Positions 8,419 through 51,161 of a stretch of 64,000 nucleotides of DNA are shown one piece after another (the stretch's first letter is position 1; every line of letters starts with the position of its first letter). Origin of the DNA: Bacteroidales bacterium Phil12 (GTDB lineage: Bacteria; Bacteroidota; Bacteroidia; Bacteroidales; P3). Under the pieces are notes generated by a model that did no database searches, had not been told where the DNA came from, and worked only from the letters and a program-made list of their open reading frames with translations. Where the stretch lies: the NCBI GenBank assembly GCA_002633275.1, contig NWBO01000053.1:184649-248648 (forward strand), written 5' to 3'. The translations under genes and the position numbers were made by a program.

Positions 8419-9174
8419 ATGTTTATGAATGCTTTTAATCACATAAAGAAAATAAAAGGGGATTTCACAAAATTAGTGTTAAACACCAATAAAATAGTGT
8501 TAAACATCAGTAAATTCTTTTCACACATTATTTCAGCCCCGTCAAAGTGCCTTGTTTTATTATGTTTGCCACTGCTTTTGATTTCATGCAACAAGACCAA
8601 CCAATACACAAGAAAAGGCAATCGCAACTACAACAAAAAAGAGTATTCCGAAGCAATAAAAAACTATGAACAGGCTTTGAAAACCGATTCGACATTTGAC
8701 AAAGCCAACTACAATCTTGGCAACGCTCTTATGCAAGACAATGGTAAGGATTACTCCAAAGCCGTTGAGCATTACAACAAATACTTAGCGAACAAGACAC
8801 CTAAGACTTCCAAGGAAAAACGCGAGGTTGCCGATGCCTTGTACAATCGTGGCAATGCCTTATTCGGCTTATCGCAAACCAATAAAGAAAGCGAGGAAGG
8901 TATGAAGTATTTGAGCCAAGCCGCCAACGACTATAAGCAATCCATGATTCTAAATCCTAAGGACACCAATGCCAAATACAATTACGCACTTTGTCTTTGG
9001 CTTATGAAGAACAATAACAATCCGGACGACCAAAACGACAATCAAAACAATAACAACAACAGCGAAATCAACCAAATGTTGAACGCTATAAAGAACAACG
9101 AAAAGCAAACCATTTCAAGGGTAAAGAAGAACAACGAAAATGTACAAGACAAACACAATGAAAAAGATTGGTAG
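8419..9174 (+). CDS. batC: BatC, TPR-repeat lipoprotein
   Basis: 251 residues as called. A hydrophobic stretch ending in the lipobox LISC (Cys at about residue 57) is followed by three or more TPR motifs (YSEAIKNYEQALKTDSTFDKA, ADALYNRGNALFG, ANDYKQSMILNPKDTNAKYN) and an Asn-rich tail. BatC is the periplasmic TPR partner of BatA/BatB. The 40 or so residues before the signal core are unusual: they are encoded by two tandem 21-nt repeats found elsewhere only between genes, so the real start may be an in-frame GTG at 8497 instead of ATG 8419 or 8425. The end overlaps batD by 17 nt. Confidence 0.88.
   Translation: MFMNAFNHIKKIKGDFTKLVLNTNKIVLNISKFFSHIISAPSKCLVLLCLPLLLISCNKTNQYTRKGNRNYNKKEYSEAIKNYEQALKTDSTFDKANYNLGNALMQDNGKDYSKAVEHYNKYLANKTPKTSKEKREVADALYNRGNALFGLSQTNKESEEGMKYLSQAANDYKQSMILNPKDTNAKYNYALCLWLMKNNNNPDDQNDNQNNNNNSEINQMLNAIKNNEKQTISRVKKNNENVQDKHNEKDW
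8474..8515. repeat. Two tandem 21-nt repeats at the 5' end of batC
   Basis: Two copies begin TAGTGTTAAACA at 8474 and 8495, exactly 21 nt apart, with imperfect self-complementarity. The unit belongs to the same AT-rich family as the intergenic arrays at 40517-40579 and 63283-63345. Read in the batC frame they give LVLNTNK and IVLNISK. Confidence 0.75.
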
Positions 9175-11790: not shown

Positions 11791-12216
11791 ATGAAAAACA
11801 CAGACTGCAATAAAGACGAGGGCATAATAACCGCCATAAACGGCAACAGTATTTCGTTGCACATTGCACAGAAATCCGAATGCAATGGCTGTTCTGCGGC
11901 TTTCTTATGTGAGAAGTCCGGCAAAACAGGTAAGGATTTAACCGTAACGCAATCCGATGCCAAAGATTTTTCTGTCGGAGAAAAAGTAAGCGTTCTTGTT
12001 CCGCAGAACAAAGTACTTAAAGCCATTGGCTTGGCGTTTTTCTATCCAAGCGTTTTGGTTATATTATTTTGTGTGTTGCAATATCATTTCTTTCCCCTAA
12101 ATGAGGGCTTGACAGCCTTGATAAGCCTTGCCATTCTTTGTCTTTACTTTTTTATATTGTATTGCAATCGCCACAAACCTTTATTCAATTTCTCCATTTT
12201 CATCGAAAAACTTTAA
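11791..12216 (+). CDS. RseC/SoxR-reducing-type membrane protein
   Basis: 141 residues of the RseC family. A small N-terminal beta domain carries cysteines C6, C31, C34 and C40 (CNGCSAAFLC), followed by two membrane spans at about 76-93 and 99-118. RseC homologues modulate sigma-E signalling or, in the Rnf context, help reduce SoxR. In Bacteroidota such a gene normally precedes rnfB; here no rnf genes follow, and the next gene is convergent. It starts 50 nt after batDE and is probably the last gene of the Bat transcript. Confidence 0.8.
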   Translation: MKNTDCNKDEGIITAINGNSISLHIAQKSECNGCSAAFLCEKSGKTGKDLTVTQSDAKDFSVGEKVSVLVPQNKVLKAIGLAFFYPSVLVILFCVLQYHFFPLNEGLTALISLAILCLYFFILYCNRHKPLFNFSIFIEKL

Positions 12217-12242
12217 TTACACTTGAACTATAAACAAAAAGC

Positions 12243-12265
12243 GGGAAGCGAATTATTCGCTTCCC
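12243..12265. terminator. Bidirectional terminator between rseC-like gene and the LRR gene
   Basis: A 9-bp GC-rich stem (GGGAAGCGA / TCGCTTCCC) with a 5-nt loop lies between two convergent genes. On the minus strand it is followed by CTTTTTGTTT, a good U-tract for the leucine-rich-repeat gene; on the plus strand the tail is weaker. Confidence 0.8.
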
Positions 12266-12293
12266 TCACTCGTTTAATAGTAACTTTTAATCT

Positions 12294-15200
12294 TTATTTT
12301 ACAATCAACTTTTCTGTTGCTACGCCATTTTGTGTACGTATAGCTAAATAATAAACACCTGCGCTAAGATTTGAAGTGGTGATTTCGTACGTTTCCGTTC
12401 CGCTAATCAAATCTTCATTTATAAGTACGCGTCCATTGACGTCCATAAGCATTAATTTTGTGTTGCCATTCAATCCTTGAAGATTGATTGTTGCGTTGCC
12501 ATTTGCCTCTATCGGGTTTGGATAAACCGTTATTGATATTGTCTGCTCTGCATCATTCAATCCGCTTTCACCTTTCATTGTCTCAAAGAATGGTATCATA
12601 ACCCACTGTGAAAGATTTTCTCCACAAACGCTACGTATCTTAAAGAAGTAGAATGTTGCAGGCTCTAAGTCTGTATAAGTCTTAGTGTTTTCCGTTACAG
12701 TCTCTATCTCGCCATCGTTCAATTGTATTTCGTAGGCATCGACTGTACCCTCCCAAGTTATTGTTGCTTCGGTTTCCGTTACTCCGCTTATTGTTAAGTT
12801 TGTCGGCTCGCCGCAACCCTCTTCTATCTCTTCGTTTGTTGTGAATGCAGTAACAACCCAGTCTGATTTGCTTTCAGCACACACACTGCGTACCTTTACA
12901 AGATATAGAGTAGCAGCCGTTAAATCGGTATAAGTCTTGCTTGTTGTTGTAACTGTCTCAACTTCGCTGTCGTTTAACTGAACTTCGTATGCCGTTGCCG
13001 TACCTGTCCAAGAAACTGTTGCACCTGTTTCCGTTACATTGCTTACTGACAATTCTGTTGGCTCGTTGCAATCCTCTATTTCTTGTTCGGTTGTTGTGAA
13101 TGAACTTATAGCCCAATCGGATTTGCTTTCTCCACATACTGCACGCACTTTAACCAAATAGAATGTTCCCGCTTTTAAGTCTGTATATGTCTTTGTCTTT
13201 GCTGTAAGCGTTTCGGCATTGCCTTCATTCAACTGTATTTCATAACTGTCGGCCGTACCTACCCAACTTATTGTTGCTCCGCTCTCGGTTATATTGCTTA
13301 CTGTCAAATTTGTTGGTTTGTCGCAAAGATTGTCGCAAACGATACTTGTAAAATGCAAATCCCAATCAGATTCTTGATAATCTGCCAACGCATTGCAAGG
13401 AACTGTCAAAGTCTTGTTTGTAGGTGTATTTGCAAATGTTTCATTCCCGATTGCAGGAGGTACTTCCGCAAGGCAATTTACTTTCTTTAATTTAGAACAA
13501 CCACTAAAAGCATAATTACCAATTGATGTAACGCCATTAGGTAGTTTTATGGAAGCTAAACTTTTACAATTATAAAAAGTAGCGTCATCAATTGTTGTAA
13601 CGCTGTTAGGTATTGTTATGGACGTTAAACTTTCGCACAAAGCAAAAGCACCATAAATGGAGTTTTCCTCTTTATAACTATTGATTGCGGTAATACCCTC
13701 AGGTATTACTATCGATGTTAAACTCTTGCAGCTATTAAAAGCACCGCCACCTATTGAAGTAACAGTATTAGGTATTGTTATGGATGTTAAATTTTCGCAA
13801 TTATGAAATGCAAGTTCTCCAATTGAAGTAACACTCTCAGGTATTGTTATAGACGCTAAACTTGTACAATTTTCAAAAGCACCATAACATTTATTGTGTA
13901 TACAAATAAAATAATCGTCCGTTTCTGCGTCCCAGCATACACTTTCTTCTTCATACCAATAACTATTAATTGCTGTAACGCCCTCAGGTATTACTATCGA
14001 TGTTAAACTTTTACAACCATAAAAAGCACCGCCACCTATTGTTGTAACGCCATCAGGTATTGTTATGGATGCTAAATTCTCGCAATTCTTAAATACAAGT
14101 TCCCCTATTGAAGTAACATTATATGTATTTCCATTATATGTAACCGTTGCAGGAATATTTATTGTTGTTGCTGTTTTATCAACAATTTGCGATACTTCTG
14201 CCGTATTGTCTTCATCAGAAAAACAATATCTTAAATCTCCAACAGTGGTTCCGCTAATTATAGTACCAAAATTCTTAGCAAATTCAGAATTTCCATAAGC
14301 CACAGCTGTTCCGCACGGAACTATTAATACCCTATAACCGGGTGTATCTTCAAATAAAGAGTGTCCAACTACCGGTGGTACTTGTGCAAGACAAGTAACT
14401 TCCTCTAAACTACTTGTACATTCCCTAAAAGCATAGTCACCAATATAAGTAATCGTGGTAGGTAATGTTACAGACGTTAAACTACTGCAATAAGCAAAAG
14501 CTTCGTCACCAATTGTTGTAACTCCCTCAGGTATTGTTACAGATGTTAAACCGCTGCAAACCCCAAAAGCACCGGCACCGATTGCAGTAACTCCCTCAGG
14601 TATTGTTATGGACGTTAAACTAATGCAATAAGCAAAAGCATAGTCACCAATATAAGTAACATTATATGTATTGCCATTATATGTAACCGTTGCAGGAATA
14701 TCCATTGTTGTTGCCGTATTATCGACAATTCCCATTACTGCTGCCGTATTGTCTTCATCATAAAAACAATAGTACAAATCACCGACAACAGTTCCGCCAA
14801 TTATTGTAGAGAACTTATTTCCCCAATCAGAACTTTGATAAGCCTCAAATGCATTGCACGGAACTATCAATGTCATATCACTATATCCGCCAAAATTACC
14901 TAACAATGTAGGTGGCTCTTGTGCAAGACAAATTACTTGTGTTAAATTATCGCAATTATTAAAGGCATAATTTCCAATGGTAGTAACACCATTTCCTATT
15001 GTCAAAGATGCTAAATCACTACAAAAAGCAAAAGCCCCATATCCAATTGAAGTAACGCTATTAGGTATTGTTATTTCTGTTAAACTTTTACAATTTCTAA
15101 AAGTATAACTTGCAATATTTTTAACACTATTTCCTATTGTTACTGATGATAGATTAATACAACTATCAAAAGCATATGCACCAATATAAGTAACGCTCTC

Positions 15201-17102
15201 GGGTATCGTTATTGATGTCAAATTTGTACAATAAGCAAAGGCTGCATAATTAATATCATTTATACTATTAGACAATGTTACAGATGCTAAGCCACTACAA
15301 TTAAAGAAAGCACAATTTCCAAGTTCAGTAACACTGTTAGGTATGTCTATTGATGCTAAGCCACTGCAATTAAAGAAAACATAATCTCCAAGTTCAGTAA
15401 CACTGTTAGGTATGTCTATTGATGCTAAACTATCGCAAGAAGCAAAAGCACCATATCCGATTGAAGTAACACTATTAGGTATTGTTACCGATGCCAAATG
15501 TACTCGGTATCCAAAAGCCATATCACCGATTTTGGTAACATTATACTCTACACCATTATATGTAACCGATTCTGGAATATTAGCAATAACAATATTACTA
15601 TCTGTATCATATACTTTAACAGTGTTATCAGCTATTATTTTATACCTAATGCTATCAATCCAAAACGTCATTTGTCCAATTCCTTCACAAGTAATATTTG
15701 AAAAATTACTTGCCCAAGATGAGTTTTGATAATCACTGACAACCTCACAAGCGACTTTCAAAGTATCCACTTGATTATTGAACACATTAGAACCCAAAGT
15801 AGGTGGATTTTGTGCAAGACAAACAACTTCTTGCAAGCCTAAAACACTATAAAACACATTATCTCCAATTTCTTGAACGCCATCTCCTATTGTTATTGAT
15901 GTTAAATTAATACAACTATCAAAGACCCAAGAACTAATAATCCAAACATTGTCAGGTATTGTAATAGATGTTAAAGCTGTACAATGGCGAAAAGTACTTT
16001 TTTCAATATTTCTAAGACCCGTTCCTATCGTTACCGATGTTAAACTGCTACAATCTTGAAAAGCCCAAGCTCCAAGTTTTGTAACACTATTTGGTATCGT
16101 TATTTCTGTTAAACTACTGCAACCTTGAAATGCAGAAGTATCAATCCTCGTAACGCTTTCAGGTATCGTTATAGATGTTAAACTACTACAATAATTGAAA
16201 GCTTGTTTTTCAATTGACGATACATCGCCGGAGATAGTTACGGAAGTTAAATTGCTACACCAACCAAAAGCCCTATCGTCAATAAATGTAACACTACTTG
16301 GTATCGTTACAGATGTCAAACCTGTACAAAGGACAAAAGTAGCCTGATTAATTGAAGTAAGTCCTTCAGGTATATTTATTGACGTTAAACTTGAACAACC
16401 TCTAAAAGCCCAATTACCTATATAGGTAACATTATCAGGTATTGTTATTGACGTTAAACTGCTACAATCATAAAAAGCATGATTTCCAATGGTAGTAAGT
16501 CCATCTGGTATCGTTACAGACACCAAACTGCTACAACCACGAAACAGGTTACGTGATATTGACGTAATACCAGTACCTAAGGTTGCAGTTACTAAACTTG
16601 TACACCCCTGAAAAGAACCATAATAGATAGTATCTCCGTTATAATTACTCAACGTATAAGCATCTCCAATTGATGTAACACTATTAGGTATTGTTATTGA
16701 TGCTAATTTGGAGCAACCATAGAAAGCAGCACCTTGAATTTCATTAACACCTTCCGGTATCACCACCGATGTTAATTCTTTACAATAATAAAAAGCACCT
16801 AAACCTATCTTGGTAACACTGTTAGGTATTGTTACCGTCTGTAATTGTGTGGAGTCATCTCCATCGTTAGAGAATGCGAAGTTTCCAATTTCGGTAACGC
16901 TATACGTTTCTCCACCATAGGTAACCGATGACGGAATATTAGCATTTACAATATCCGTGTGTGCTACCGCTACCTTAACAGTGTTCTCCGAAATTATCTG
17001 ATACTGCAAACTATCCACCCAAAATGTAGTCTGCCCCCACATTGTGCCGAACGTAAGTAGAAACGTCATAAGCACCAATGTTTTCTTTAATACTCTGTTC
17101 AT
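12294..17102 (-). CDS. Giant BspA-type leucine-rich-repeat surface protein with Fn3 and T9SS sorting domains
   Basis: 1602 residues. Signal peptide to about residue 23. Four modules follow, starting near residues 25, 476, 772 and 956. Each has a header strand pair (IPxxVTYNGxTYNVTxIG), an array of 23-residue BspA-type repeats (SLTSITIPxSVTxIGxxAF), and a cap with CLAQxPP and a conserved Cys (VPCNALADYQ). Then come three fibronectin type III domains (about 1261-1520, each starting CxEPTxLxVS) and a type A sorting domain (VYPNP to the terminal KLIVK). It is therefore a T9SS cargo. BspA-like proteins are known for binding host proteins and other bacteria; the ligand here is unknown. It starts 56 nt downstream of an HU gene. 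Confidence 0.93.
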   Translation of the reverse strand: MNRVLKKTLVLMTFLLTFGTMWGQTTFWVDSLQYQIISENTVKVAVAHTDIVNANIPSSVTYGGETYSVTEIGNFAFSNDGDDSTQLQTVTIPNSVTKIGLGAFYYCKELTSVVIPEGVNEIQGAAFYGCSKLASITIPNSVTSIGDAYTLSNYNGDTIYYGSFQGCTSLVTATLGTGITSISRNLFRGCSSLVSVTIPDGLTTIGNHAFYDCSSLTSITIPDNVTYIGNWAFRGCSSLTSINIPEGLTSINQATFVLCTGLTSVTIPSSVTFIDDRAFGWCSNLTSVTISGDVSSIEKQAFNYCSSLTSITIPESVTRIDTSAFQGCSSLTEITIPNSVTKLGAWAFQDCSSLTSVTIGTGLRNIEKSTFRHCTALTSITIPDNVWIISSWVFDSCINLTSITIGDGVQEIGDNVFYSVLGLQEVVCLAQNPPTLGSNVFNNQVDTLKVACEVVSDYQNSSWASNFSNITCEGIGQMTFWIDSIRYKIIADNTVKVYDTDSNIVIANIPESVTYNGVEYNVTKIGDMAFGYRVHLASVTIPNSVTSIGYGAFASCDSLASIDIPNSVTELGDYVFFNCSGLASIDIPNSVTELGNCAFFNCSGLASVTLSNSINDINYAAFAYCTNLTSITIPESVTYIGAYAFDSCINLSSVTIGNSVKNIASYTFRNCKSLTEITIPNSVTSIGYGAFAFCSDLASLTIGNGVTTIGNYAFNNCDNLTQVICLAQEPPTLLGNFGGYSDMTLIVPCNAFEAYQSSDWGNKFSTIIGGTVVGDLYYCFYDEDNTAAVMGIVDNTATTMDIPATVTYNGNTYNVTYIGDYAFAYCISLTSITIPEGVTAIGAGAFGVCSGLTSVTIPEGVTTIGDEAFAYCSSLTSVTLPTTITYIGDYAFRECTSSLEEVTCLAQVPPVVGHSLFEDTPGYRVLIVPCGTAVAYGNSEFAKNFGTIISGTTVGDLRYCFSDEDNTAEVSQIVDKTATTINIPATVTYNGNTYNVTSIGELVFKNCENLASITIPDGVTTIGGGAFYGCKSLTSIVIPEGVTAINSYWYEEESVCWDAETDDYFICIHNKCYGAFENCTSLASITIPESVTSIGELAFHNCENLTSITIPNTVTSIGGGAFNSCKSLTSIVIPEGITAINSYKEENSIYGAFALCESLTSITIPNSVTTIDDATFYNCKSLASIKLPNGVTSIGNYAFSGCSKLKKVNCLAEVPPAIGNETFANTPTNKTLTVPCNALADYQESDWDLHFTSIVCDNLCDKPTNLTVSNITESGATISWVGTADSYEIQLNEGNAETLTAKTKTYTDLKAGTFYLVKVRAVCGESKSDWAISSFTTTEQEIEDCNEPTELSVSNVTETGATVSWTGTATAYEVQLNDSEVETVTTTSKTYTDLTAATLYLVKVRSVCAESKSDWVVTAFTTNEEIEEGCGEPTNLTISGVTETEATITWEGTVDAYEIQLNDGEIETVTENTKTYTDLEPATFYFFKIRSVCGENLSQWVMIPFFETMKGESGLNDAEQTISITVYPNPIEANGNATINLQGLNGNTKLMLMDVNGRVLINEDLISGTETYEITTSNLSAGVYYLAIRTQNGVATEKLIVK

Positions 17103-17158
17103 TTCTTTTTCTGTTTTTTAATGTTATTAAATTGTTTTATTTATTATTAAAATTCTTT

Positions 17159-17563
17159 TCACACGTGTTTCAAATTCAGATTGACTTTTCTGAACGAGGC
17201 TGTTTTTAATTCGTCCTCCACCTCGACGCTCGGGCGGAACTCCACCGACTTGCTCTGTATCACGTCCAGCGAAAAATCCTCCTCACTATCCACTGCCTTA
17301 ACCTTTATCTTCGGCGAAAACGTGCCTAACTTATTCAATTTCACTTGCTGTCCGTCAGCCAACTGCTCACGAAGAACCATCACAAAGGCCTCTATAAACC
17401 TCTTCGCCTCATTGTCCGAAATCGTAGATTCCACTGCCACCTGCCTTGCCAAAGACTTCGTTGAAACCTTGCCCGCAGACGATAATTTCGGTGTGTAAAT
17501 CTTCTTCCTCTCGCCTTTGACATAAACATCTCGGACTACTATTTTATACGGTATTGTTGCCAT
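17159..17563 (-). CDS. HU-like DNA-binding protein 1
   Basis: 134 residues. The N-terminal strand (KIVVRDVYVKGERKKIYTPKL) is followed by an HU/IHF-type core (TKSLARQVAVESTISDNEAKRFIEAFVMVLREQLADGQQVKLNKLGTFSP) and a C-terminal beta extension (SVEFRPSVEVEDEL). This is the longer Bacteroidota version of HU rather than the 90-residue canonical form. It is the third gene of a tandem trio, with no Shine-Dalgarno sequence, and precedes the large LRR gene. Role: probably nucleoid structure or site-specific DNA bending; targets unknown. Confidence 0.85.
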   Translation of the reverse strand: MATIPYKIVVRDVYVKGERKKIYTPKLSSAGKVSTKSLARQVAVESTISDNEAKRFIEAFVMVLREQLADGQQVKLNKLGTFSPKIKVKAVDSEEDFSLDVIQSKSVEFRPSVEVEDELKTASFRKVNLNLKHV

Positions 17564-17622
17564 AACTCTTTATTTTTCTTTTGTTTATAAATCATTTCCT
17601 TAACTTTTACCACCACAGCCGA

Positions 17623-18033
17623 CTATTTATTGATATGCTGCGTGTTCAACTCTTCGTAATATTCGACCTTCGCCTTTTGCATCGCCCTTTTCAGTTCAGT
17701 ATCAGGACGAAAATTGATTTTAACCTTTTCGATTGCGTTCGCATTGACGTCATCGACATTCTCATTGCCATGAGTTTTCAGCGACGGCGAAAACGTTCCG
17801 AGACCATCGACCTTAACCGAGCGACCGCTTAGCACCGCCGCCATAATCTGGTCTGCCAACTCGTCCATCATCAACAAAATTTCGGGAGCCTCCATTGACA
17901 GCGATTTCGTCAATCGCTTCGCTATATCTTTCTCTGTCAGAACTCCTTGAAGATGCTGCTTTGCAACAATCTTTTCTTTTTGCTCTCCTTTAACCCAAAT
18001 TTTCATCTTGGTCTTATAGTAAAACAACGCCAT
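17623..18033 (-). CDS. HU-like DNA-binding protein 2
   Basis: 136 residues, clearly paralogous to its two neighbours: strand FYYKTKMKIWVKGEQKEKIV, HU core (TEKDIAKRLTKSLSMEAPEILLMMDELADQIMAAVLSGRSVKVDGLGTFSPSL) and tail KINFRPDTELKRAMQ. A strong Shine-Dalgarno AGGAGG lies 6 nt before the ATG, which is unusual in a phylum that rarely uses one. The 432-bp gap upstream holds the palindromic repeat element at 18151-18374. Confidence 0.85.
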   Translation of the reverse strand: MALFYYKTKMKIWVKGEQKEKIVAKQHLQGVLTEKDIAKRLTKSLSMEAPEILLMMDELADQIMAAVLSGRSVKVDGLGTFSPSLKTHGNENVDDVNANAIEKVKINFRPDTELKRAMQKAKVEYYEELNTQHINK

Positions 18034-18150
18034 TTTATTCCTCCTTTTTTTACTTGTTTAACAATTAATTTAACTATCTGTTTTTTATTAAAATATTTCA
18101 ATTTTATACCCTCAAATTTCTTTTCTACCACCTCAAATTTTCGCCCTCGC

Positions 18151-18374
18151 CCTTGATATTATCGTCTAAATCCTTAGAGTCTGCGTCTAAATCGCTGCAA
18201 CTCGTGTCTAAATCGTTGAGAAACGTGATTCAACTTTGCGATAAGTTGAGGGTGAAGTTTGCGATAAGTTGAACCACAACTTTGCGATAAGTTGAATTGC
18301 GTTTTCAAGCGTTTTAGACGAAAGTCTCAACGTTTTGGACGCAAGTTGCAACGTTTCGCACGAAAACTTCAAGG
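18151..18374. repeat. Palindromic 21/23-nt periodic element between HU genes
   Basis: Left arm 18151-18236 and right arm 18289-18374 are each 86 nt and are inverted copies without gaps (about 58 of 86 positions match). The left arm has GTCTAAATC at 18164, 18185 and 18206 (21-nt period); the right arm has CGTTTT or CGTTTC at 18310, 18331 and 18352 (21-nt period). The 52-nt centre and its edges hold TTTGCGATAAGTTGA at 18235, 18258 and 18281 (23-nt period). No credible coding sequence is present. It shares its architecture, but not its sequence, with 49990-50244. Confidence 0.85.
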
Positions 18375-18465
18375 TACGGCATCTGAAATCTAAGCCGTAA
18401 GTCTTATAAATCAAGTTTTTACTTATCGATATGTTGTTTTTGAAAATCATCATCAAAACAAAAAT

Positions 18466-18876
18466 TTATTCTTGAAACTTCGGCATATAACTACGCTTGT
18501 GCAGAGGTATTTCTTGCAAGCGTCTTGTCAGTTCTTTTGAGGGGTAAAAAGTGCATTTGACCCTTGTAATGTTTTTCGTGCAGACGTCTTCGAGATTATC
18601 TTGTGCTTTCGCTTCCAATTTCAGACTTAGCGTGCCGAAATTTCCAAGATACACCTTTTGTCCCTGCATCAATGCGTCCATTCCGATGTCGCTCCACTCG
18701 TCCAACGCCAACTGAACCTCAAACCTTGATAACGTGCTGCCGATTTCAATCTTACGACTTAACGATTCAACGGTCGCAGGGCTTTTCTTCAACAACTTCG
18801 GAAAATATTTGGTCTCGACCTCGCCGGTTTTGAAATTGTTGATTTTCCTTGATTTTACGAAGTATTCCAATACCAT
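18466..18876 (-). CDS. HU-like DNA-binding protein 3
   Basis: 136 residues, first gene of the trio. LEYFVKSRKINNFKTGEVE strand, HU core (VESLSRKIEIGSTLSRFEVQLALDEWSDIGMDALMQGQKVYLGNFGTLSLKL) and C-terminal extension KCTFYPSKELTRRLQE. An AGGA lies a few bases before the ATG. The promoter is probably the strong one at 19210-19240, with a possible terminator in between, so the gene may be controlled by read-through. Confidence 0.85.
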   Translation of the reverse strand: MVLEYFVKSRKINNFKTGEVETKYFPKLLKKSPATVESLSRKIEIGSTLSRFEVQLALDEWSDIGMDALMQGQKVYLGNFGTLSLKLEAKAQDNLEDVCTKNITRVKCTFYPSKELTRRLQEIPLHKRSYMPKFQE

Positions 18877-19008
18877 AATCCTGATGTTTTTGGTTATTTT
18901 TTATGTTAATTGTTTTCGTTTTTCGGTTGAACTACGATTGTTTTTCAAATTCAAATTTCTGTTTATCGCTACGCAATTTTTGTTTTTCTTTTTTCCCACG
19001 TTACAAAT

Positions 19009-19049
19009 AAAAAAATATGCAGACGAATTTCTGAAAATTCATCTGCATA
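19009..19049 (-). terminator. Rho-independent terminator or attenuator upstream of HU gene 3
   Basis: A 14-nt stem (13 of 14 pairs: 19016-19029 with 19036-19049, loop of 6) is followed on the minus strand by seven T residues. No gene ends here. It terminates either a short leader RNA or, as an attenuator, the transcript of the HU gene starting at 18876. Confidence 0.7.
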
Positions 19050-19203
19050 CATTATATATATGGTAGCGTTCTTTCGCTACCGAAGTTGTCTTCTCAAAAT
19101 CAAATCTTAAAATCCCCCCCCCCTAATCGCTGTGGCAGAAAGAGTTACATTTTTATTCTCAATATTTTCAATTATTTTATTCACTATTTTATTCTCGTTT
19201 AAT
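19009..19203 (-). ncRNA. Candidate small or leader RNA with a G10 tract
   Basis: A strong promoter (19210-19240) and an intrinsic terminator (19009-19049) define a possible transcript of about 195 nt with no coding sequence. It contains a run of ten G (plus strand C at 19114-19123), then a 7-bp hairpin GGTAGCG/CGCTACC at 19062-19081, then the terminator stem. No known RNA family was recognised. The remaining sequence of the 18877-19463 gap holds only the L17 terminator. Confidence 0.45.
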
Positions 19204-19209
19204 CGGTTG

Positions 19210-19240
19210 CAAAATTACAACTGTTTTCCGATATGACAAA
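19210..19240 (-). promoter_or_regulatory. Strong promoter upstream of the leader RNA and HU genes
   Basis: On the minus strand TTTG (19240-19237), exactly 19 nt spacing, then TAATTTTG (19217-19210): a full match to the Bacteroidota housekeeping consensus, in the extended context TTGTAATTTTGCA. Confidence 0.75.
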
Positions 19241-19401
19241 ATTTAACTCCGAAAAATTTGAATTTTAGACAAAAGAATGAAAAACAGACAACAAAAAAAC
19301 ACTAAATAAAGGCTGATATTTCAACAGTTCAAACGAATAAATATAAAGCAAAAACAAACAATCCAAAAATGTAATTTCGTAAATGCAATTTTAAGTCGGA
19401 A

Positions 19402-40390: not shown

Positions 40391-40516
40391 AGTACTTTAT
40401 TTTAATTTTTTGCAAAGTTCGTTTATGGATATTACATAATTGTTTCATAAATTTTAAGTTTTCGTTACAAAAACCTTATATGCTTTCACAAAATTAATCA
40501 ATGAAAAGAATTTTCT

Positions 40517-40579
40517 AATGTTTAACACTAATTTATTAATGTTTAATATTATTTTACGGATGTTAAACATCAGTAAAGC
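40517..40579. repeat. AT-rich 21-nt array, copy D
   Basis: Three consecutive units start at 40517, 40538 and 40559 with AATGTTTAA, AATGTTTAA and GATGTTAAA, exactly 21 nt apart. The GTTTAAC/GTTAAAC core is near-palindromic. Located between the histidine-kinase stop and the pit start. Confidence 0.8.
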
Positions 40580-48484: not shown

Positions 48485-49765
48485 ATGAAAGATTTTGTAG
48501 AAGAATTAAGGTGGAGAAATATGATTCACACCATTATGCCCGGAACGGAAGACCAACTGAAAAAAGGTATGCAGACGGCATACGTCGGCATTGACCCTAC
48601 TGCCGATTCTCTTCATATCGGACATTTGGTAAGTATTATGATTATGGCACATTTTCAGGCTTGCGGACACAGACCTTTGATTGTTGTGGGCGGTGCTACG
48701 GGTATGATTGGCGATCCTTCTTTCAAATCTTCGGAGCGTGTGCTTCTAACTCCCGAGACCATCAACCACAACTTGCAATGTATCAAAAAACAAGTCTCCA
48801 AGTTCTTGAATTTCGACGAAAACACACCAAATCACGCTCAAATCCTAAACAACTACGATTGGACAAAAGAGTGGTCGTTCATTGACTTTATCCGTGAAAT
48901 AGGCAAACATATCACCGTCAATTATATGATGGCAAAAGACAGCGTAAAAAAGAGAATCGAGACAGGTATTTCCTTTACCGAGTTTTCTTATCAGTTGCTA
49001 CAAGGCTACGATTACTATTATTTATACAAGAATTACGACTGTCGTTTGCAACTCGGCGGCTCCGACCAATGGGGCAACATCACAACGGGTACGGAACTTA
49101 TCAAGCGTATGGACAACGGCGAGGCTTTCGCTATCACATGCCCGCTTATCACCAAGTCTGACGGTAAAAAGTTCGGCAAGACTGAGAAAGGAAATATTTG
49201 GTTGGATAGAGAAAAGACCTCTCCTTATCAATTCTATCAATTTTGGCTAAATCTATCTGACGAAGACGCCAAACGTTTTATCCGTATTTTTACTCTTATG
49301 AGCCAAGAAGAGATTGAGGCATTGGAGAGCGAACACGACAAACAGCCGGAGGCAAGACTGTTGCAAAAGGCTTTGGCAAAAGACATCACAATTCGCGTTC
49401 ATAGCCAGGAGGACTACGACAACGCTATCGAAGCCTCACAAATTCTTTTCGGCAAGGGTACAAAAGAGTCTTTATCCAAACTTGACGAAATGACGTTTTT
49501 GAGTGTCTTTGACGGCGTACCGCAATTCACGGTATCGAAGTCTGAGATAGAAAACGGCATAGGCATCATAGATTTGTTGGCTGACAAAACGCAGATACTT
49601 TCTTCAAAAGGCGAGGTTCGTCGTGAGTTAAAAGGCAACTCTTTATCGATAAATAAAGAAAAGATTACCGAAACTTTCGTTACCGATAAATCCTGTCTTT
49701 TGAACGACAAGTATATTTTGGTACAAAAGGGCAAGAAAAACTATTTTATCATCATCGCCCAATAG
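48485..49765 (+). CDS. tyrS: Tyrosyl-tRNA synthetase
   Basis: 426 residues, bacterial class I enzyme. HIGH motif as LHIGHL, tyrosine pocket [30 protein letters not shown]-like loop KFGKT, and a C-terminal S4-like RNA-binding domain ([25 protein letters not shown]). Charges tRNA-Tyr. Followed by a hairpin terminator. Confidence 0.97.
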
Positions 49766-49875: not shown

Positions 49876-49989
49876 TGTCCAAACATTAAACATATTTGTT
49901 TTACCAACCTCTGCCTATGCTTTTCAAAATCTCTTGCGCAGACTGATTTTCTTTTCTTACAGCCTTACATTTCTCTCCTCTCGCCTACT

Positions 49990-50244
49990 CTTTTTGTCCC
50001 AACTATTGAAGTTGTCGTCACGAATAGCACTGACTCGCGTCACGAATAGCACTAACTAATTTACGGAGTAGCACTAACTCGTGATGTGGATATCGCAATC
50101 CGCTGGTGGTGAATATCGCAATCCATACCGATGGATATCGCAATCCACATCACGAGTTAGTGCTACTCCGGACGAAAGTCTGTGCTATTCGGGACAAGAG
50201 TTAGTACTATTCGGGACAAAAATGTCCGTAATTGGGACAAAAAG
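49990..50244. repeat. Large palindromic 22-nt periodic element between tyrS and nadK
   Basis: Arms 49990-50090 and 50144-50244 are each 101 nt and pair without any gap at about 81 of 101 positions; the inner 27 are perfect (50064-50090 with 50144-50170). Left-arm units CGAATAGCAC recur about every 22 nt (AGCAC at 50026, 50048, 50070). Right-arm units end GGGAC (GGAC at 50170, 50192, 50214, 50235). The 53-nt centre carries ATATCGCAATCC at 50090, 50113 and 50135. Rest of the 49766-50264 gap: the tyrS terminator; no gene. Confidence 0.88.
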
Positions 50245-50264
50245 TCGCCTACGAAAAATAAAAT

Positions 50265-51161
50265 TTACAGATTGCCGATTAGAAATTTGGGAGTCTGTCC
50301 CCACATCAATTTATTTCGTATCGAAAAGAAAAAGTCTTGGTTCTTTAATCTCACAAGGTTCCAACTGTATTGGCTCTTGCGTATGGTTATCTCGCCTTGC
50401 GTCCTGTCGAAAATAGCATAGCCATCAACCAACATCTTACAAGGGTCTTCCGTGTCGGGTATCCTGACTTTAACCACATCATTATCCGAAATGATTATAG
50501 GACGAAAGGTAAGGTTGTGCGGAGCAACAGGTGTAACACAAAGGCAACGGCTGTCGGGAGTGATGATTGGGCCGCCCGCACTCATAGAATATGCCGTCGA
50601 ACCGGTAGGCGTTGCGATTATCAAACCGTCTCCGCAGAATGTGGAAGCATACTTGTCGTTGATAAATACCTCTAAATCCACAACGCTGCCCCTATTGGTC
50701 GAAAGAAAACATACCTCGTTAAACGCAAACTCCCTACCCGAACAATCGAAAGAATACTCGGGCTTTAATACCGGTCGCTTCTCTATCGTATAGTTCTCGG
50801 CAACAATTTCCTTGACAATGGTCTTGATGTCCGAACGCCCCGCCGTTGTAAGAAAACCTAAATGCCCAAGATTGATTCCGATAACCGCAATATCGGTTCC
50901 TATAACGTAATCCAAAGTGTCCAGCATCGTTCCGTCGCCACCTAAGGAAAATAAAATCTTGCTGTGCTTGTCAATCTCACTTTTTTTGGTGAAAGTTTCT
51001 ATGCCTTTGATATGGGTTATTCGGTCTTTGATAGCATCGTAAAAAGGCTTCCACACAAGCACGTCGATGCCCTGTGCGGATAAATCTTCCAACAATAAAA
51101 CTATTAAATCTTTGTCCTGTGGATTGGTCGGAACCTTGCCGTAAATGGAAATTATCATCAA
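50265..51161 (-). CDS. nadK: NAD kinase
   Basis: 298 residues. Diagnostic GGDGTMLD (74-81), FNEVCF, and SAGGPII with TPTGSTAYSMSAGG in the NAD-binding domain. Phosphorylates NAD to NADP in the cytoplasm. The second residue is also Met, so the start may be one codon later. It follows sufD on the same strand after 81 nt and could be cotranscribed. Confidence 0.95.
   Translation of the reverse strand: MMIISIYGKVPTNPQDKDLIVLLLEDLSAQGIDVLVWKPFYDAIKDRITHIKGIETFTKKSEIDKHSKILFSLGGDGTMLDTLDYVIGTDIAVIGINLGHLGFLTTAGRSDIKTIVKEIVAENYTIEKRPVLKPEYSFDCSGREFAFNEVCFLSTNRGSVVDLEVFINDKYASTFCGDGLIIATPTGSTAYSMSAGGPIITPDSRCLCVTPVAPHNLTFRPIIISDNDVVKVRIPDTEDPCKMLVDGYAIFDRTQGEITIRKSQYSWNLVRLKNQDFFFSIRNKLMWGQTPKFLIGNL

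Follow-up and report, generated by a model that had tools for sequence, protein, structure and literature searches.

A nested palindrome between tyrS and nadK in a Bacteroidales genome: a putative orphan copy of repeat arrays associated with HU-HIG genes

The 255-bp palindrome lying between the convergent tyrS and nadK genes in the 64,000-nucleotide stretch of DNA from the rumen organism Bacteroidales bacterium Phil12 analysed here (the window) is probably, judging from its relationships to other sequences, an orphan copy of one of the putative DNA binding-site arrays that go with cassettes of HU-HIG genes, whose products are members of the HU/IHF superfamily. Such arrays share an architecture and are associated with HU-HIG genes; their units are often dyad-symmetric, their sequence mostly differs from cluster to cluster, and orphan elements share their centres with particular clusters.

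The two arms of the palindrome (Table 1) pair without a gap at 81 of 101 positions, with 4 further G-T pairs and a perfect innermost stretch of 27, so that the hand count of the first-pass annotation proved exact to the base; a repeat search also gives a longer ungapped inverted pair, 49990-50101 with 50133-50244, of 112 nt and 79% complementarity. The same search confirmed the reading of the arms as tandem repeats of about 22 nt and of the centre as three copies of another unit. Direct 22-nt repeats begin at 50016, 50038 and 50060 in the left arm and at 50155, 50177 and 50199 in the right, and the centre is made of three ATATCGCAATCC units which, written as TGRATATCGCAATCC, start at 50087, 50110 and 50132. 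Since the centre units are likewise 22-23 nt apart, a single pitch runs through arms and centre alike. Two of the three centre units start with GGAT and end with ATCC, forming a short palindrome; by eye, a dyad is present in the centre unit, while the arm unit has no clear one.

Table 1. Features of the window discussed in the text (window positions)
Feature	Position	Strand	Basis or remark
Left arm of the palindrome	49990..50090	+	81/101 positions paired with 50144-50244
Right arm of the palindrome	50144..50244	+	Repeat search and pair count
Three tandem 22-nt arm units, CGTCACGAATAGCACTRACTCG type	50016..50081	+	Direct-repeat search
Three tandem 22-nt arm units, inverted	50155..50220	+	Direct-repeat search
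Centre, three TGRATATCGCAATCC units, pitch 22-23 nt	50087..50146	+	Direct-repeat search
tyrS, left convergent neighbour	48485..49765	+	ORF; name from the first-pass annotation
nadK, convergent on the right, with its stop 20 bp away from the arm	50265..51161	-	ORF; name from the first-pass annotation
Second element, alike in plan but not in sequence; in the arms GTCTAAATC recurs with a period of about 21 nt, and the centre holds 3 x (C/G)AA(C/G)TTTGCGATAAGTTGA at a spacing of 23 nt	18143..18372	+	
HU-HIG gene 1 of the window cassette	17159..17563	-	PF18291, E 3.7e-23
HU-HIG gene 2, first gene downstream of the element	17623..18033	-	PF18291, E 8.3e-21
HU-HIG gene 3, on the element's other side	18466..18876	-	PF18291, E 3e-21

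The flanking open reading frames are convergent, as originally described, and the suggested folding of the region gave -140.4 kcal/mol for 49970-50260, against -68.7 +/- 5.0 for shuffled sequences (z -14.5). The nesting of the repeats is real, and the element is neither a REP sequence nor a simple terminator, as had been proposed. REP and BIME elements are described, in the accessible part of the source, as 20-40 bp palindromes of high copy number (PMC3733652), whereas the present one is 255 bp long, nested and found at four places in the genome; nor does its length, with no run of T's after the right arm, fit an intrinsic terminator, which is a short GC hairpin with a run of T's behind it. 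Read on the opposite strand, the arm finishes with A's, and a T5 within the left arm is their mirror image. No Rfam model matched the 64-kb window at the gathering threshold.

A DNA search of the genome from which the window is taken (G000; 2.96 Mb in 174 contigs, the window lying on C53) found further copies at C64:112583, C34:12647 and C147:9078, the window element being 80% identical over 194 nt to the one in the C64 cassette. Among 101 genomes, three gave matches: G000, G005 (uncultured Bacteroidales RUG093) and, doubtfully, G013, so the window sequence itself is very local; the 31-bp match in G013 (L010) lies in what looks like coding sequence and was taken as chance, as was a Granulosicoccaceae match (L061). 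The same plan recurs with largely unrelated sequence: arms built of ~22-nt repeats lie in inverted orientation on either side of 1-4 short palindromes, whose spacing, where measured, is 20-23 nt. Such elements were sought by fold scans of C53, C158, C64, C34 and C147 and of C43 and C39 of G005, together with a joint scan for inverted and direct repeats, and lie on C53 at 121k, 148k, 202.8k (18.1 kb in the window), 309k and 316k, at C158:105k, 255k and 338k, at C64:60.6k and 112.5k, and in G005 at C43:120k and C39:14.8k; their centres include GTTTGTACAAACCT, ATAGTACTAT, TACATTACGTAA and GTTGCGCAACTTT. Both the copies and these elements of unrelated sequence answer to the earlier expectation of similar elements elsewhere. 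A re-check by repeat scan added gene-less 22-23-nt arrays at C53:10391-10453, C53:287880-287947 and C64:32943-33007; three other candidates proved to be AT-rich DNA, a repeat due to base composition and undetermined bases (N).

Some of the surroundings of these elements deserve mention in their own right. The gene for a 37-kD nucleoid-associated protein (PF04245; C53:121524-122693) adjoins a gene-less element, which may be coincidence. A copy of the window family (L004, 1101-1436 and 1500-1700) lies directly downstream of cas1-cas2, about 1 kb from a contig end. A variable gene island of about 6.5 kb (C53:308338-316142) is flanked near both ends by elements whose centres are of different types; G005 has an HU cassette at this site.

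The second element of the window (fold z -5.2 for 18080-18400) sits inside a cassette of the form HU-HU-element-HU. By sequence comparison the second HU protein matches solved HU/IHF chains weakly (best E 0.012), so the family assignment rests on Pfam (PF18291). Further complete cassettes are found in G000 on C64, C14, C152 and C59, and partial ones at C152:104k, C158:254k and C53:309k; in the complete ones the order on one strand is HU3, array, HU2, HU1, which puts the array upstream of HU2-HU1. An adjacent 21-23-nt array is present at 10 of the 12 HU-HIG clusters of this genome, upstream of the tested gene in 8 and downstream of an HU3-type gene in 2 (two canonical HU genes, one HU3 fragment within a counted cluster and one C121 fragment below the cut-off are left out of the 12). 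The clusters on C20 and C42 have no array, C20 passing only at a control lag (13.6), and the two on C90 are just below the fold threshold yet have arrays of AAAAGTCCCGACTTTTT and AAAACCTAGGGTTTT type by direct-repeat score. Within about 0.93 Mb of G000 all four HU-HIG clusters lie no more than 400 bp from one of 13 listed elements, with a chance probability, calculated post hoc, of about 4e-8. The C14 and C53:202k cassettes are near copies, with HU proteins 98-100% identical and a common array; the HU3 fragment at C53:309k is closest to the HU of C152:104k (81%), with which it also has its array in common; and the HU1 proteins of C152 and of G005 C43 are 94% identical, with different arrays.

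Other features were seen around these clusters. Beside the C42 gene (L132, from C42:1305 on) there is a strong hairpin (z -5.8) that has no 22-nt repeats. In the HU-HIG triplets of G005 C8 and C15, compared with those of G000 C90, the palindrome cores differ and the 22-23-nt pitch is equal. Where the window has a BspA-type LRR gene and the HU cassette (12209-19400, or C53:196857-204048), G005 has instead about 2.2 kb with Sel1-repeat ORFs; by this comparison, the window cassette is in a variable island.

The association extends beyond this genome. When the 450 nt upstream of HU-HIG genes were scored for repeats at lags of 20-24, they were found at 15 of 22 loci of the genus and 18 of 20 of the family (L165 and L176, which are near-identical, count as two here), and, among the matches listed, at 34 of 42 further loci in other genera of the family. 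Downstream arrays were seen at 2/42 genus and family loci and, again among the matches listed, at 4/42 of the further ones, and in each set of 42 the control lags scored at one locus (14-18) and at none (26-30). For the further loci, 40 regions (43 genes) were taken in listing order among the matches listed, skipping loci already taken, the own genus, one gene interrupted by a stop codon and another lying where a contig begins. Rows L170 and L214 (runs of N) were dropped from the first set, of genus and family loci, and L270 and L283 (less than 150 nt upstream) from the later one, as was L176, a copy of L165, from the dyad test described below. In other families of the order 6 of 14 loci had the array upstream, 4 downstream (all at lag 22) and 4 neither. 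The canonical HU genes with an upstream array numbered 0/5 and, for the order, 1/13, the single case being at lag 24. As background, 106 of 671 genes in G000 pass the threshold, 91 of them at lag 21; these form a class of their own, and lags 22 and 23 account for 8 genes. Fisher's test gives p = 8e-19 for 34/42 against 106/671 and 2e-11 for upstream against downstream, values which are post hoc, for loci that are not independent, and descriptive, since the pattern had already been seen when the range of lags, the threshold for the score and the list of elements were fixed. An earlier joint score had picked out 14 of 25 HU-HIG loci, none of 5 canonical HU loci and 2 of 12 nadK loci.

Beside HU-HIG genes the pitch is 21-23 nt, and in the other elements 20-23 nt; many of the adjoining arrays consist simply of direct repeats on the upstream side. 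Dyad symmetry of the units (for example CCTAACTTAGTTAGG, CCCAACGCCGTTGGG and AAAACAATGCCATTGTTTT) reaches p <= 0.05 for 37 of 66 arrays, the remaining 29 failing, with a mean score of 4.3 against 2.2 for shuffles. Array sequence mostly differs between clusters, but some clusters, also of different species, have arrays that are alike, for example L215/L216/L219 and L166/L178. In G008, which belongs to the genus but is more distant (its NadK protein is 69% identical), an HU-element-HU-HU cassette has an unrelated sequence and a fold just short of the threshold (z -2.94). G025, from another genus, carries not only an HU array but also a distinct array of 7-8 units, one base different, located between genes for a glycogen debranching enzyme and a Y-family polymerase, with no HU gene detected within 1.5 kb; with up to one mismatch, this motif has no copy in G014 or G044 and one in G035.

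The window palindrome likewise has no adjoining HU-HIG gene, such adjacency being seen for its C64 relative and for the element at 18.1 kb; it is therefore termed an orphan copy and not a full member of the array class. Its centre is that of the C64 cluster, as are those of the orphans on C34 and C147. Comparable pairs of orphan and cluster are C53:148k with C59, C53:316k with C152:98k, C158:338k with C158:255k and C64:32.9k with C90:6.5k, while the C64:60.6k orphan has the centre common to the C53:202.8k and C14 clusters, and the array at C53:287.9k (AAGTTTGTACAAACTT) resembles the C59 type. For C53:121k, C158:105k and C53:10.4k, no matching HU-HIG cluster was seen. That the gene-less elements are relics of decayed cassettes was considered and rejected: tblastn (E up to 0.1) with 25 usable HU proteins from G000, G005 and G008 (a 26th, of 2 residues, was not used) found no HU remnants in 11 gene-less regions, and both control regions were found.

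An orthologous element with one centre unit, against three in the window, lies between tyrS and nadK in G005, a genome whose syntenic blocks of more than 300 bp are 92-97% identical to G000 (leaving out paralogous HU blocks, at 73-77%). Changed sites number 10/97 and 7/101 in the arms, 15/224 in the left spacer, 33/1281 in tyrS and 36/897 in nadK, so that the palindrome diverges about as fast as nearby spacer DNA. Out of 102 pairs, 70 are the same in G005, 1 is compensatory, 3 are half-kept, 7 are broken and 21 are lost with the two centre units; among the 81 comparable pairs, 5 of the 7 broken ones lie far out in the arm, at 49998-50011, and a fold of -116 kcal/mol is retained by the G005 copy. 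Equal arm length had suggested that the structure is maintained as a hairpin, a selective explanation which this one ortholog pair, with 7 broken pairs against 1 compensated, does not support, though weak selection on the hairpin may be compatible with a single pair of genomes, and the faultless pairing of the inner part may reflect recent origin or homogenisation. In the genus, tyrS adjoins nadK in one of 12 other species whose nadK locus was examined by tblastn, namely G008, where about 90 bp containing a simple hairpin separate the two genes. The first-pass annotation would have given up its reading had related genomes had unrelated, non-palindromic sequence here and no similar elements elsewhere; G008 bears out the former part, while similar elements do occur. 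Of three orphan sites compared, two (C158:105k and C53:121k) have no element in G005. Divergence at the spacer rate, together with these vacant sites, suggests that the orphan may do nothing.

Chance or faulty assembly, for which the position of several copies near contig ends might be cited, is refuted by the orthologous copy in G005, a separately deposited assembly; the fold z-score and the relatives elsewhere are also against it. An element acting as RNA, either a bidirectional terminator or a double-stranded RNA hairpin between convergent genes, would account for the extreme fold energy and perhaps for the orientation of the neighbours, since 5 of the 9 gene-less elements with both neighbours listed lie between convergent genes (3 are tandem and 1 divergent), compared with 25 of 87 spacers of at least 350 bp. 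It is nevertheless improbable, given the broken pairing in the ortholog, the lack of an Rfam match in the window and the many HU-HIG arrays that are plain direct repeats upstream of genes.

It is less improbable, though still unlikely, that the palindrome is a functionless selfish intergenic element, MITE-like or BOX-like, moved in trans by a transposase, and that HU cassettes merely carry or border copies. Copies are indeed dispersed, some of them at contig ends; occupancy differs between the two close genomes, and so does the number of centre units; and, by eye, some copies have sequence in common outside the arms, one flank carrying CTCGCCTTTATTGAACA or something near it in L002, L004 and L013, and a flank carrying TTTGAAGTT in L002, L004, L013, L017 and L060. 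A precedent with IS5-type terminal repeats exists in BrickBuilt, a MITE with a 23-nt minisatellite in Porphyromonas gingivalis (PMC4596501). As far as the available text of that paper goes, BrickBuilt is like the window element in being intergenic in a member of the Bacteroidales, with tandem units of ~22-23 nt, predicted stem-loops, dispersed copies and a unit number that varies between strains, and one copy, BrickBuilt_14, has a membrane protein gene (-) on one side and a gene for a PF00216 DNA-binding protein (+) on the other. It differs, by description and not by sequence comparison, in being one sequence family with leader, tail and terminal repeats, and a second unit type in inverted arms is not among the features described in that text (PMC4596501). 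Matching terminal repeats or a target duplication could not be defined here, and the window copy has no shared flanks; in G005 the C158:105k and C53:121k sites hold unrelated sequence with no clean junction and no target-site duplication (two sites, one genome pair). The plan is constant while the sequence differs between loci, and arrays of unrelated sequence stand beside HU-HIG genes across genera, which is not expected from a single transposon family. Stretches like ACGTGAGTTCGA, or of ACGTGAGTTTGA, were also noticed at about 3930 of L060, at C53:37.6k and at C64:32.8k, near the palindromes though not at them; they resemble the terminal repeat of MITE239 of P. gingivalis, as given in the accessible text (PMC4596501).

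Links between HU-type proteins and inverted repeats have been described before, here cited from partial texts. At the P. gingivalis capsule locus, the HU protein PG0121 is tied to a 77-bp inverted repeat, likewise in the Bacteroidales, and binds the inverted-repeat 77-mer with higher affinity than a control 77-mer; unlike what is proposed here, it is similar to E. coli HU and binds most tested DNA structures alike, and a 22-nt array is not described in the text available (PMC3969353). The hupA promoter of E. coli also pairs an HU gene with a palindrome, in negative autoregulation, though this is a single inverted repeat and not an array (PMC3969353). The TAACTGA heptamers of Beggiatoaceae and some Bacteroidetes, in what could be consulted of that source, are a different, short repeat (PMC4679880).

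A second high-copy class of repeats was noticed on C53, C158 and C64 of G000, with a 21-nt pitch and the core RTGTTWAACAY (window examples at 8470-8514 and 40509-40569). Its sites number 159 in about 0.9 Mb, whereas five shuffles gave 0-6, and neighbours less than 60 nt apart are spaced solely by 21 or 42 nt; this is possibly another array family. The idea that the HU-HIG genes on C90 and C20 have this class as their target was rejected, since neither C90 cluster has a site beside it and C20 has one nearby.

The palindrome as an orphan of the HU-HIG arrays remains the preferred reading. Units every 21-23 bp, about two turns of DNA, would present themselves on one face, and short, often dyad-symmetric motifs at this spacing are what would be expected for dimers bound side by side. 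It is this operator-like or iteron-like look, dyad-symmetric direct repeats at a pitch of about two turns beside genes for DNA-binding proteins, that points to the arrays as HU-HIG targets. Iteron and operator arrays of self-regulated DNA-binding proteins have repeats of ~20-22 bp upstream of the binder's gene; for the HU-HIG arrays, by comparison, binding is inferred, and we know of no HU-type iteron binder. The HU-HIG proteins of a cluster would bind the array beside their genes, would bend it or wrap it, and may regulate the operon that encodes them; copies that have dispersed between other genes, as between tyrS and nadK, could be extra docking sites or passive by-products.

HU-type proteins are usually regarded as nearly sequence-blind, IHF excepted, and expansions of the HU superfamily have reportedly been treated in a 2017 Cell Cycle article. 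The link between HU-HIG genes and 22-nt arrays is not named in the titles and abstract openings retrieved from a mainly open-access literature, which gives weak support to its absence from print. It is a tentative proposal, at somewhat less than even chances, that HU-HIG proteins are sequence-specific and self-addressed and not general nucleoid proteins, that paralogous clusters have co-diversified with palindromic arrays of 22-bp pitch of their own, and that the orphans are chromosomal addresses. If so, each genome would hold several orthogonal pairs of protein and site, with orphan addresses, the window palindrome among them, for nucleoid folding or for the marking of foreign DNA. A rule joining HU-HIG genes to ~22-nt palindromic arrays would make their specificity directly testable and provide a lead to the function of a family that is expanded in some Bacteroidales, and it may explain orphan repeats like the window palindrome and perhaps BrickBuilt.
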